Position numbers and translations under genes: made by a program. DNA of 64,000 nt, from NCBI GenBank assembly GCA_023954195.1, contig JAMLIK010000005.1, positions 248,001 to 312,000 on the forward strand, in the 5' to 3' direction. The first letter of the stretch is position 1. Each line of letters starts with the position of its first letter. This document shows, piece after piece, positions 2,913 to 8,858 of this stretch. The notes beneath the pieces are model-generated. The model did not search any database, was not told the DNA's origin, and was given only the letters and a program-made list of their open reading frames with translations. The DNA is from Xanthobacteraceae bacterium. GTDB lineage: Bacteria > Pseudomonadota > Alphaproteobacteria > Rhizobiales > Xanthobacteraceae.

Positions 2913-4241
2913 ATGCCGATTCGACGCTTTACCGCTGTAGCCGCCGCCGCGCTGACGCTGGCACTGACCTCGGCGCTGCCCGGCCCCGCCCTCGCCGTCA
3001 CCGAAATCCAGTGGTGGCATGCCATGACCGGCGGCAACAACGACGTCATCGTCAAGCTGGCCAACGACTTCAACGCCTCGCAGAACGACTACAAGGTGGT
3101 GCCGACCTACAAGGGCAGCTATCCCGACACCATGAACGCCGGCATCGCCGCCTTCCGCGCCGGCAACGCGCCGCACATCATGCAGGTGTTCGAGGTCGGC
3201 ACCGCCACCATGATGGCCGCGAAAGGCGCGGTGAAGCCAGTCTACCAGCTGATGAAGGAAACCGGCGAGCCGTTCGATCCCAACGCCTACCTGCCGGCGA
3301 TCACCGGCTACTACTCGACCTCGAAGGGCGAGATGCTGTCGTTCCCCTTCAACTCGTCGTCGACGGTGATGTGGGTCAACCTCGATGCGCTGAAGAAGGC
3401 CAATATCGCGGAGATCCCGAAGACCTGGCCGGAGGTGTTCGAGGACGCCAAGAAGCTGAAGGCCGCCGGCTACGCCACCTGCGGGTTCTCCAACGCCTGG
3501 GTGACCTGGGTCAATCTCGAACAATTGTCGGCCTGGCACAACGTGCCGCTGTCCTCGAAAGCCAACGGCCTCGATGGCTTCGACACCGTGCTGGAGTTCA
3601 ACGGCCCGCTCCAGGTCAGGCACCTGGAAAAGCTGATCGAACTCCAGAAGGACAAGACCTACGACTATTCCGGCCGCACCAATGCCGGCGAGGGCCGCTT
3701 CACCTCCGGCGAATGCCCGATCTTCCTGACCTCGTCCGGCTTCTTCGGCAACGTCAAGTCGCAGGCCAAGTTCCACTGGACCAACGCGCCGATGCCTTAT
3801 TACCCCGACGTCAAGGACGCGCCGCAGAATTCCATCATCGGCGGCGCCTCGCTGTGGGTGATGGGCGGCAAGACGCCGGAGGAATACAAGGGCGTCGCCA
3901 AATTCCTCGCCTTCCTCTCCAACACCGACCGGCAGGTCTACATCCACCAGGCGTCGGGTTATCTGCCGATCACCAAGGCGGCTTACGAGAAGGCCAAGGC
4001 CGACGGCTATTACAAGGAGCACCCCTATCTCGAAACGCCGCTGAAGGAACTGACCAACAAGCCGCCGACCGAGAATTCGCGCGGCCTGCGGCTCGGCAAC
4101 ATGGTGCAGCTGCGCGACGTCTGGGCCGAGGAGATCGAACAGGCGCTGGCCGGCAAGAAATCCGCCAAGGACGCCCTGGACGCGGCCGTTTCGCGCGGCA
4201 ACACCATGCTGCGCCAGTTCGAGCGGACCGTGGCGAAGTAG
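2913..4241 (+). CDS. ugpB: ABC transporter periplasmic binding protein for glycerol-3-phosphate
   Basis: A 442-residue family 1 solute-binding protein that captures sn-glycerol-3-phosphate (or its diesters) in the periplasm and delivers it to UgpAEC. A signal peptide covers residues 1-28, with likely cleavage after ALA. The mature start TEIQWWHAMTGGNND and the PTYKGSYPDTMNAGIAAFR segment are UgpB hallmarks. GGAGG lies 8 bases before ATG 2913. It heads the ugpB-(DUF559)-ugpA-ugpE-ugpC group and has a Pho-box-like site upstream. The substrate is inferred from family and operon. Confidence 0.92.
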   Translation: MPIRRFTAVAAAALTLALTSALPGPALAVTEIQWWHAMTGGNNDVIVKLANDFNASQNDYKVVPTYKGSYPDTMNAGIAAFRAGNAPHIMQVFEVGTATMMAAKGAVKPVYQLMKETGEPFDPNAYLPAITGYYSTSKGEMLSFPFNSSSTVMWVNLDALKKANIAEIPKTWPEVFEDAKKLKAAGYATCGFSNAWVTWVNLEQLSAWHNVPLSSKANGLDGFDTVLEFNGPLQVRHLEKLIELQKDKTYDYSGRTNAGEGRFTSGECPIFLTSSGFFGNVKSQAKFHWTNAPMPYYPDVKDAPQNSIIGGASLWVMGGKTPEEYKGVAKFLAFLSNTDRQVYIHQASGYLPITKAAYEKAKADGYYKEHPYLETPLKELTNKPPTENSRGLRLGNMVQLRDVWAEEIEQALAGKKSAKDALDAAVSRGNTMLRQFERTVAK

Positions 4242-4297
4242 GTCTGGACGCAATCAGGACGATGAGTTCTTCTGCCTCACCAGATGGCGATACCAAC

Positions 4298-4350
4298 TCC
4301 CCTCCCCCCGCTCTTGCGGCGGGGAGGGGTCGGGGGTGGGGGGACGCCAC
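4298..4350. repeat. Left 53-bp inverted repeat bounding the DUF559 gene
   Basis: The reverse complement of 4298-4350 matches 4689-4740 at 50 of 53 positions (two substitutions and a 1-base indel). The repeat is itself partly palindromic: CCCTCC...CCGC, then CTCTTGCGGCGGGGAGGGG. It ends two bases before the DUF559 start codon. The pair may mark the ends of an inserted cassette or form a very large hairpin in the ugp mRNA. Confidence 0.9.
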
Positions 4351-4352
4351 AA

Positions 4353-4760
4353 ATGCTGCGCTCCGTTGATTATCGCGTCCCGCGCGCGCGACACTTCCGG
4401 AAAAATCCAACGGGTGCCGAGCGCAAGCTGTGGCAGCATCTCCGCCACCTTCCATGCGCCGCCCATTTCCGACGTCAAGCGACAATCGGTCCCTATTTCG
4501 CGGACTTCGCCTGTCATACCACTCGACTCGTGATCGAGATCGATGGCGGGCAACATGCCGACAGCGTGAGCGATCGCGAACGAACGTGTGATCTGAATGC
4601 GCGCGGTTATCGCGTTCTCAGATTCTGGAATAGCGACGTTCTCGGAAATATCGATGGGGTATTGGCGACCATCGTTGACGCTTTGCAGGTGGCTCCCCCC
4701 ACCCCTGACCCCTCCCCGCCGCAAGAGCGGAGGGAGGGGAATCGCGGGGAGGACAGATAA
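4353..4760 (+). CDS. DUF559 domain protein (Vsr-like endonuclease fold)
   Basis: A 135-residue DUF559 protein, related to very-short-patch-repair endonucleases in the PD-(D/E)XK group. Visible signatures are [10 protein letters not shown] (about 22-31), [15 protein letters not shown] (38-52), the acidic core [10 protein letters not shown] (59-68) and the C-terminal [23 protein letters not shown] 4353 begins the family-typical text; an upstream in-frame ATG at 4284 would read through the left inverted repeat. The last 20 or so residues are encoded by the right repeat. It sits between ugpB and ugpA, where no such gene belongs, and stops 5 bases before the ugpA ATG. The cellular role of DUF559 proteins is not established. 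Confidence 0.88.
4689..4740. repeat. Right inverted repeat bounding the DUF559 gene
   Basis: This 52-bp partner of 4298-4350 overlaps the 3' end of the DUF559 reading frame, giving the proline-rich tail [11 protein letters not shown]. Just outside it, GGGGAGG at 4746-4752 is the only plausible Shine-Dalgarno for ugpA, 13 bases before its ATG. No target-site duplication is obvious immediately outside the repeats. Confidence 0.9.
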
Positions 4761-4765
4761 AGCCG

Positions 4766-5647
4766 ATGCAAAAGCAATCCGTCTTCACCTCCCGTTCGCT
4801 GCCGTGGCTGCTGATCGCGCCGCAGATGCTGATCGTGCTGGTGTTCTTCTACTGGCCGGCGGCGCAGGCGGTGTGGCAATCGTTCCTGTTGCAGGATGCG
4901 TTCGGGCTGTCCACCACCTTCATCTGGTTCGAGAACTACAGCGACCTGCTGGCGGATCCGGATTACTTCGCCGCCGTGGTGCGCACCTTCGTCTTCGCCG
5001 CCGCCATCGGCGTCTCGTCGTTGTCGGCCGCGCTGCTGCTGGCGGTGATGGCCGACAAACCCTTGCGCGGCGTCGGCGTCTATCGCACGCTGCTGATCTG
5101 GCCCTACGCCGTGGCGCCGCCGGTCGTCGGCGTGCTGTGGCTGTTCATGCTCAACCCGTCGCTGGGCGTCCTGGCGCACGGCCTGCGCGCCATGGGCCTC
5201 GACTGGAATCCGCTGCTCAACGGCAATCAGGCGGCGTTGCTAATCATCCTCGCCTCGGCCTGGAAGCAGATTTCGTATAATTTCCTGTTCTTCCTCGCCG
5301 GCCTGCAAGGCATCCCGAAAAGCGTGCATGAAGCCGCCGCCATCGACGGCGCGCGCCCGGTGCGGCGGTTCTGGACCATCACCTTTCCGTTGCTGACGCC
5401 GACCATCTTCTTCCTGATCGTCATCAACGTGGTCTACGCCTTCTTCGACACCTTCGGCATCATCGACACCATGACCCGCGGCGGTCCCGCCAAGGCGACC
5501 GAAACGCTGGTCTACAAGGTCTATTCCGACGGCCTGCTCGGCGGCAACCTGGGCTCGTCGGCGGCGCAGTCGGTGATCCTGATGGGCATCGTCATCGTGC
5601 TCACCGCGATCCAGTTCCGCTTCGTCGAACGCAAGGTGACGTACTGA
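4766..5647 (+). CDS. ugpA: Glycerol-3-phosphate ABC transporter, permease subunit
   Basis: A 293-residue inner-membrane permease of the MalF/UgpA type, with about six hydrophobic segments. The first is [20 protein letters not shown]. The coupling-loop EAA motif reads [20 protein letters not shown] (about residues 190-209), which contacts the ATPase. Its ATG follows the DUF559 stop by 5 bases, and its own stop overlaps the ugpE ATG, showing translational coupling with ugpE. Confidence 0.93.
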
Positions 5648-8746: not shown

Positions 8747-8858
8747 GCTCCCTCTCCCGTTGGGAGAGGGTTGGGGTGAGGGCTTACAACCTCAACGGCG
8801 AAGGATCACCCTCACCCGAATCGCTCCGCGATCCGACCTCTCCCCGACGGAGAGAGGT
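8747..8858. repeat. GC-rich double-hairpin intergenic repeat
   Basis: The left unit is hairpin CCCTCTCCC-gtt-GGGAGAGGG followed by TTGGGGTGAGGG. The right unit is its inverted relative, CCCTCACCCGAA, then hairpin CCTCTCC-ccgac-GGAGAGAGG. It is related in design to the repeats bounding the DUF559 gene and to a remnant near 39580-39602. It lies in the 416-bp gap between DUF1150 and ilvD. From 8860 to 9011 nothing was recognised apart from the presumed ilvD promoter region. Confidence 0.7.

Follow-up and report, generated by a model that had tools for sequence, protein, structure and literature searches.

A DUF559 gene between inverted arms in the ugp operon

The window, by which we mean the whole 64,000-nucleotide stretch of Xanthobacteraceae DNA analysed here, contains an ABC-transporter operon in which a cassette made up of a DUF559 gene and two inverted arms is located between ugpB and ugpA. 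The following features were assigned:

2913..4241, + strand: upstream host gene, solute-binding protein (ugpB; PF13416, 7.4e-35)
4298..4350, + strand: left arm, a hairpin with a 9-13 bp stem and a TCTT loop, then an inward G-rich tail TCGGGGGTGGGGGG
4353..4760, + strand: DUF559 gene (PF04480, E=2.7e-32), ATG at 4353 assumed as start
4689..4740, - strand: right arm, inverted copy of the left arm, overlapping the 3' end of the DUF559 gene
4766..5647, + strand: downstream host gene, ABC permease (ugpA; PF00528, 6.9e-12)
8748..8856: gene-less inward-facing hairpin+tail pair (8748-8782 on the + strand, 8809-8856 on the - strand)

Alignment of the two arms (53/52 nt) gave 50 matches, 2 mismatches and one 1-nt gap with an ungapped core of 47 nt (96%). 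This bears out the preliminary description, which had reported inverted repeats with 50 matching positions at 4298-4350 and 4689-4740 and one complete DUF559 gene between them. Each arm hairpin carries one inward-pointing G-rich tail; the DNA fold was -16.9 kcal/mol (z -2.6) for the left arm and -14.2 kcal/mol (z -2.1) for the right arm. The DUF559 frame is open from an ATG at 4284 as well, the likely start being the ATG at 4353, just past the inner end of the left arm. The C-terminal tail of the protein had been attributed to the right repeat, which is correct; since the stop codon ends at 4760, the tail is encoded by the right arm together with sequence past it.

The genome-wide repeat search proposed at the outset was carried out with a 22-base arm core at up to 3 mismatches. 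In the 4.18-Mb genome it returned three matches: both arms, without any mismatch, and one site elsewhere with 3 mismatches; the reversed control pattern had one match. The pairing of the arms exceeds chance, and no dispersed copies of the window arm type were detected at this setting. Another 8 hairpin-tail motifs, of a GGGAGAGGG..GGGTGAGGG type, are present in the same genome, 6 overlapping matches at a poly-G end being left out of this count. One of the 8 is located within the gene-less pair at 8748-8856. This pair had been described as a recurrence, without a gene, of the GC-rich style of the cassette repeats (8747-8858); the two inward hairpin+tail units are real, but their sequence type differs from that of the DUF559 arms. 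They are also unlike in design, one showing a simple tail and the other an inner hairpin before the tail. A second DUF559 match of the genome (C1:651972-652274) lies within a 430-aa frame and is not accompanied by inverted arms.

The cassette protein matched PF04480 with 111.3 bits at a curated cut-off of 20.6. Its sole family matches were the DUF559 and MTES_1575 nuclease families, with no HUH/Y1 tyrosine transposase among them, and a defence library yielded weak matches only. A structure model (pLDDT 88, pTM 0.80) showed its best PDB fold matches to 3hrl (1.5e-7), an endonuclease-like protein from Neisseria, to 3r3p (3.6e-5), the domain of the homing endonuclease I-Bth0305I, and to 1vsr (3.2e-3), which is Vsr. 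The 3r3p alignment had a probability of 1.00 and 23% identity to I-Bth0305I. Residues E23, D51, E62, D64 and H68 were invariant in an alignment of 30 relatives. On the basis of the model, the protein is a predicted nuclease of the Vsr/PD-(D/E)XK fold in which acidic and histidine residues are conserved. Among six of the seven orthologues (G002 was left out) dN/dS ranged from 0.08 to 0.16 with a median of 0.12 (15 pairs, dS being saturated in some), and this purifying selection indicates that the protein is functional. Because the cassette has a gene of its own for a nuclease-fold protein, and this protein is under constraint, the attribute 'non-autonomous' in the preliminary description is doubtful. 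A Vsr-like DUF559 protein has been described from C. crescentus (VsrA, CCNA_02930), and in the part of that study covered here it is tied to the SOS/DNA-damage response and proposed to be a mismatch-repair endonuclease, with flanking repeats going unmentioned (PMC12907096). A scan of viral sequences revealed 21 DUF559 loci.

Thirty ugp loci were sampled, one of which (L136) yielded no ugpB, and the ugpB/ugpA junction was read in 29 genomes including the window's own. A DUF559 gene is missing from 22 of these, in agreement with the earlier statement that the two genes usually have no gene between them. The remaining 7 junctions carry DUF559 with arms and belong to six of the eight genomes of the genus and to one other family member (G035). 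It had been said that relatives all carrying gene and repeats at this site would argue against a mobile cassette, and this pattern is thus present in part; the comparison for empty sites gave 22 junctions without the gene, but most same-genus sites proved to be filled. The two other genomes of the genus (G005, G006) show a single hairpin in place of the cassette. At two same-genus junctions (L109, L114) the single hairpins are located exactly at the cassette site with loop orientations opposite between genomes; they may be scars of loss or empty targets. Two further junctions from other family members (L120 and L124 in G019 and G032) carry gene-less inward pairs of another type of the triplex motif described below. 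On a tree of ugpB+ugpA the hairpin-only state requires two origins on well-supported branches. Judged by these sequences, loss of the gene would be the simplest reading, with insertion of the gene into a resident hairpin as a possible alternative. The cassette at ugpB/ugpA itself appears to be an old, vertically inherited copy, and its distribution does not support recent movement at this site.

The arms as intrastrand triplex motifs

The hairpin-tail design corresponds to the intrastrand triplex motif (TM, TM_ECO or PIT) of Holder et al. 2015 (PMC4666352), laid out in the text of that paper as a Y stem, a loop, an R stem, a short loop and a third purine strand. It is reported there with 23 copies in E. 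coli MG1655 and from >260 genomes, in some cases as inverted pairs. The motifs were found to be intergenic and associated neither with mobile elements nor with gene function, and the terms nuclease, DUF and Vsr are absent from the covered text of the paper. The window arms show all elements of this layout and deviate from the exact TM_ECO consensus, the core being GGGGAGGGG/GGGGTGGGG as opposed to CCCTCNCCC..GGGNGAGGG..GGGNGAGGG. Several arms at other DUF559 loci do match the E. coli consensus.

We compared stem and third strand in 111 simple arms, ignoring kinship. A stem A was found opposite a third-strand T/A in 0.57 of cells compared to 0.35 after shuffling, a value reached by 0/1000 shuffles, and G opposite stem A occurred in 71 cells. 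In these 111 arms, whose relatedness is uncontrolled, the third strand tracks the stem in the way expected of a triplex. Of 236 arms, 46 have an inner hairpin in place of the short second loop. By a crude loop parse, 9 of 37 parsed inverted pairs were of the A/A loop type, E. coli pairs being A + B. Tail-inward hairpins with a Y-rich 5' half were present on both sides at 108/134 loci, and hairpins of the opposite sense on both sides at none. Genome G069 contains outward-facing TM pairs uniformly spaced at about 116 bp (C2, C6, C30 and C32), one of which adjoins a DUF559 gene.

Gene and arms across DUF559 loci

We scored inverted arms around other DUF559 genes and considered a locus bracketed at a score of at least 36, or at least 50 at a strict level. 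From the best 80 of 548 DUF559 relatives 79 were tested (L011 was dropped for its short flank). Bracketing was observed at 62 of these 79 loci compared to 1/1580 random intervals, and at the strict level at 46 compared to 0/1580. As a gene-centred control, other genes at the same loci were bracketed in 8/915 cases, and genes of up to 660 nt in 2/289. Among 50 further DUF559 loci 34 were bracketed, as opposed to 10/1000 random intervals. This second set comprises a class sample of 30 loci (17 bracketed), which are the best-scoring ones and not random, and 20 loci selected from genomes that carry more than one DUF559 gene; L150 duplicates L049, and L147 and L164, centred on small fragments, were scored negative. 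The DUF559 genes tested elsewhere mostly do have flanking repeats, whose lack the preliminary description had named as an argument against a mobile cassette, with arms absent by the score test in 17/79 close relatives and 16/50 further loci. Three of six early loci (L002, L009, L010) lacked arms by this test, as did the DUF559 loci of N. gonorrhoeae (score 32), P. aeruginosa and Synechocystis. E. coli ycjD was considered as an empty-site system and dropped, two loci being without inverted arms (scores 18 and 20). At L025, L148 and L149, which share a locus, DUF559 is part of longer frames without arms, perhaps a domesticated form.

Hosts of loci with arms include alpha-, beta- and gammaproteobacteria, Desulfobacterales, Marinimicrobia, Doudnabacteria and Gastranaerophilales, and arms were also found at Deinococcus loci (scores 97 and 41). 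One unit is plasmid-borne, between sufB and sufC in Sphingomonas. The reading frame ends within or past the right arm in 82 of 101 loci with arms, and the median unit length is 462 bp.

To delimit the units we used 55 locus pairs with an alignment of at least 330 bp and arms in both members, of which 29 are without flank homology. In these 29 pairs the alignment ended no more than 10 bp from the arm tip at the right end in 19 cases, at the left end in 8 and at both ends in 5; a single pair had an alignment overrunning an arm by >10 bp. For the window copy and an Afipia copy, DNA similarity breaks off 1 and 3 bp inside the arm tips, and for two paralogues of genome G070 at -2 and +4 relative to the tips. 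Several other pairs have common flanks and therefore common sites. Gene and arms are thus well supported as one transmissible unit found at unrelated sites in different genomes. The earlier idea of a small mobile cassette, or of a selfish nuclease gene travelling within repeats, accordingly stands as regards the bracketing of most close relatives and the tendency of similarity to end at the arm tips, but not as regards recent mobility at ugpB/ugpA.

Arm similarity averaged 0.46 within loci compared to 0.21 between loci (108 loci). A Mantel comparison of arms and protein gave r 0.19 with 0/500 permutations as high (103 loci); for named loci of different taxa the correlation was weak (r 0.10, 11/500). 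In genome G070, arms were present at 8 of 9 DUF559 loci examined, with a similarity of 0.35-0.93 within loci and a mean of 0.22 between them. Arm similarity is highest for its closest protein pairs (62% identity: 0.60; 64%: 0.40), and two other protein pairs at 57-60% are unremarkable (0.28 and 0.19). Arm pairs are hence locus-specific and show a weak co-variation with the protein. Target duplication was not detected in 106 loci, the mean best direct repeat being 0.90 compared to 0.94 after shuffling, with 136/200 shuffles as high. As a test of recent insertion, the flank of locus L169 was followed in 19 congeners of G070; DUF559 lay beside it in 0/19, and the right flank is not syntenic in these genomes.

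We also determined the co-occurrence of TM patterns and strong DUF559 matches (E up to 1e-20) in 289 genomes of the class, ignoring kinship and including the units' own arms in the TM count. The pattern was present in 40 of 72 genomes with strong DUF559 compared to 20 of 217 others, with on average 6.7 as opposed to 0.39 copies; at least 5 copies were found in 21/72 and 5/217, respectively. The reversed control equalled or exceeded the TM count in some genomes (G089, G184, G280, G348). When all genomes with any control match were removed, TM was present in 30/60 DUF559-positive genomes compared to 12/208 others. TM-rich genomes without a DUF559 match exist, e.g. G094 with 28 copies. Gene-less inward TM pairs numbered 6 in 1.27 Mb with spacers of 12-43 nt. 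The strict TM regex detected inward arms on both sides at 20 of 80 loci only, so that gene-less units will be undercounted too.

Possible routes of spread

We consider it probable that the cassette is an element resembling REPtrons (RAYT-REP or TnpA-REP, REPINs), in which a DUF559 nuclease gene of the Vsr/homing fold is located between two cognate inverted arms, each a hairpin whose tail is triplex-capable. As in REPtrons, small palindromic hairpin repeats are inverted around the gene of a DNA-acting enzyme, the repeat type is gene-specific, gene-less pairs occur elsewhere and no target duplication is seen, the last also separating the units from classical IS elements and transposons. The enzyme, however, has a PD-(D/E)XK Vsr fold and is not a HUH tyrosine transposase, and the repeats are G-rich hairpin+tail TM motifs. 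The best inference from these sequences is that DUF559 would drive movement of the unit by acting on the arms, cutting and transposition both being inferred. The protein may recognise the folded arms of its own unit, probably when replication or transcription exposes them as single strands, and may nick or cut DNA, whereupon the unit would be copied to new sites without target duplication. Loss of the gene could result from recombination or slippage between the two palindromic hairpins, which are also near-direct repeats, with a single hairpin left behind, and gene-less TM pairs could be relics or non-autonomous relatives of DUF559 units.

An unlikely alternative is homing, in which DUF559 cuts a resident hairpin or TM pair and is copied in by break repair, the arms representing the halves of the split target. 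The fold shared with I-Bth0305I (3r3p) is consistent with such a route, as are the gene-less TM pairs (G019, G032) or single hairpins (G005, G006) at the same ugp junction and the existence of inward pairs with short spacers. In contrast to I-Bth0305I, at 23% identity, the DUF559 gene is free-standing in a repeat-bounded unit and no intron or intein was seen. Homing is opposed by the arms being included in the similarity between copies at different sites, and by the lack of the window arm type elsewhere in a genome that has 8 TM copies of another type. Because of this lack the arms seem to arrive with the gene, an appearance that co-conversion of the arms could mimic.

A still less probable explanation is that the gene encodes a Vsr-type repair enzyme, with arms that control the mRNA or protect the locus and that are common by inheritance rather than by mobility. 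Caulobacter VsrA, SOS-linked and similar in its Vsr-like DUF559 domain, favours this reading and differs from the element proposed here in its suggested role in mismatch repair (PMC12907096). Vertical inheritance in the window's genus fits as well, as does the strong RNA structure of the insert (RNA fold z -9.6), which also makes the folding of ugp mRNA by the repeats, suggested in the preliminary description, a possible side effect; such folding leaves unexplained why arms surround DUF559 in unrelated neighbourhoods. Against a repair gene speak the different arm pairs at different loci of one genome (G070), the units of similar DNA at unrelated sites and the enrichment of TM in DUF559-positive genomes. 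That repeats merely settle around short genes and DUF559 plays no part in their spread is very improbable: TM motifs without DUF559 and DUF559 genes without arms do exist, but the random-interval (1/1580; 10/1000) and gene-centred (8/915; 2/289) controls disfavour it, and one of the two bracketed short genes is a GIY-YIG nuclease gene.

This gene-centred control match (L075, 5641-5940, - strand; PF01541, 2.7e-12) is located between inverted palindromes starting with CGTCATT. In a sample of 30 related loci (L209-L238) from 70 of 192 class genomes, inverted arms were found at 14 of 29 testable GIY-YIG loci compared to 3/580 control intervals. About 12 of the 14 show, by eye, the GTCA start of CGTC-type REPs, a label assigned from the text of Di Nocera et al. 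2013 (PMC3733652). According to that text, GTAG REPs pair with RAYTs and CGTC REPs have no dedicated transposase; the string CCCTC does not occur in it, the consensus-bearing figures being outside the search. In a study of Legionella evolution, as far as covered, GIY-YIG genes and a DUF559 segment are recombination hotspots (PMC12308824). The literature covered, to which subscription journals and most preprints do not belong, yielded no paper linking DUF559 or GIY-YIG genes to these repeats.

The pairing of GIY-YIG genes with CGTC REPs parallels that of DUF559 with TM and hints at a wider principle. Tentatively, and with chances somewhat short of even, palindromic repeats lacking a RAYT may be moved by small nucleases of their own, TM/PIT by DUF559 and CGTC REPs by GIY-YIG, each gene recognising its own folded arms, so that nuclease-driven REPtrons would form a broad class of minimal mobile elements. 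The DUF559 arms share hairpin, short loop, third purine strand and the occurrence of inverted pairs with TM, and differ in the GGGGAGGGG/GGGGTGGGG variant of the window and in their association with a gene, TM having been reported without any (PMC4666352). Our data suggest that the TM repeat family, for which no companion gene had been seen before, constitutes a small mobile element; Holder et al. 2015 tied TM to genome instability and, in the text covered, left its spread unexplained (PMC4666352). A nuclease gene packaged between the repeats provides a testable enzyme for both CGTC REPs and triplex motifs. At about 460 bp, the units would rank among the smallest mobile elements with a gene of their own. 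DUF559, a domain of unknown function, would be recast as an arm-recognising nuclease, a link that bears on the Vsr-like DNA-damage activity in Caulobacter (PMC12907096).
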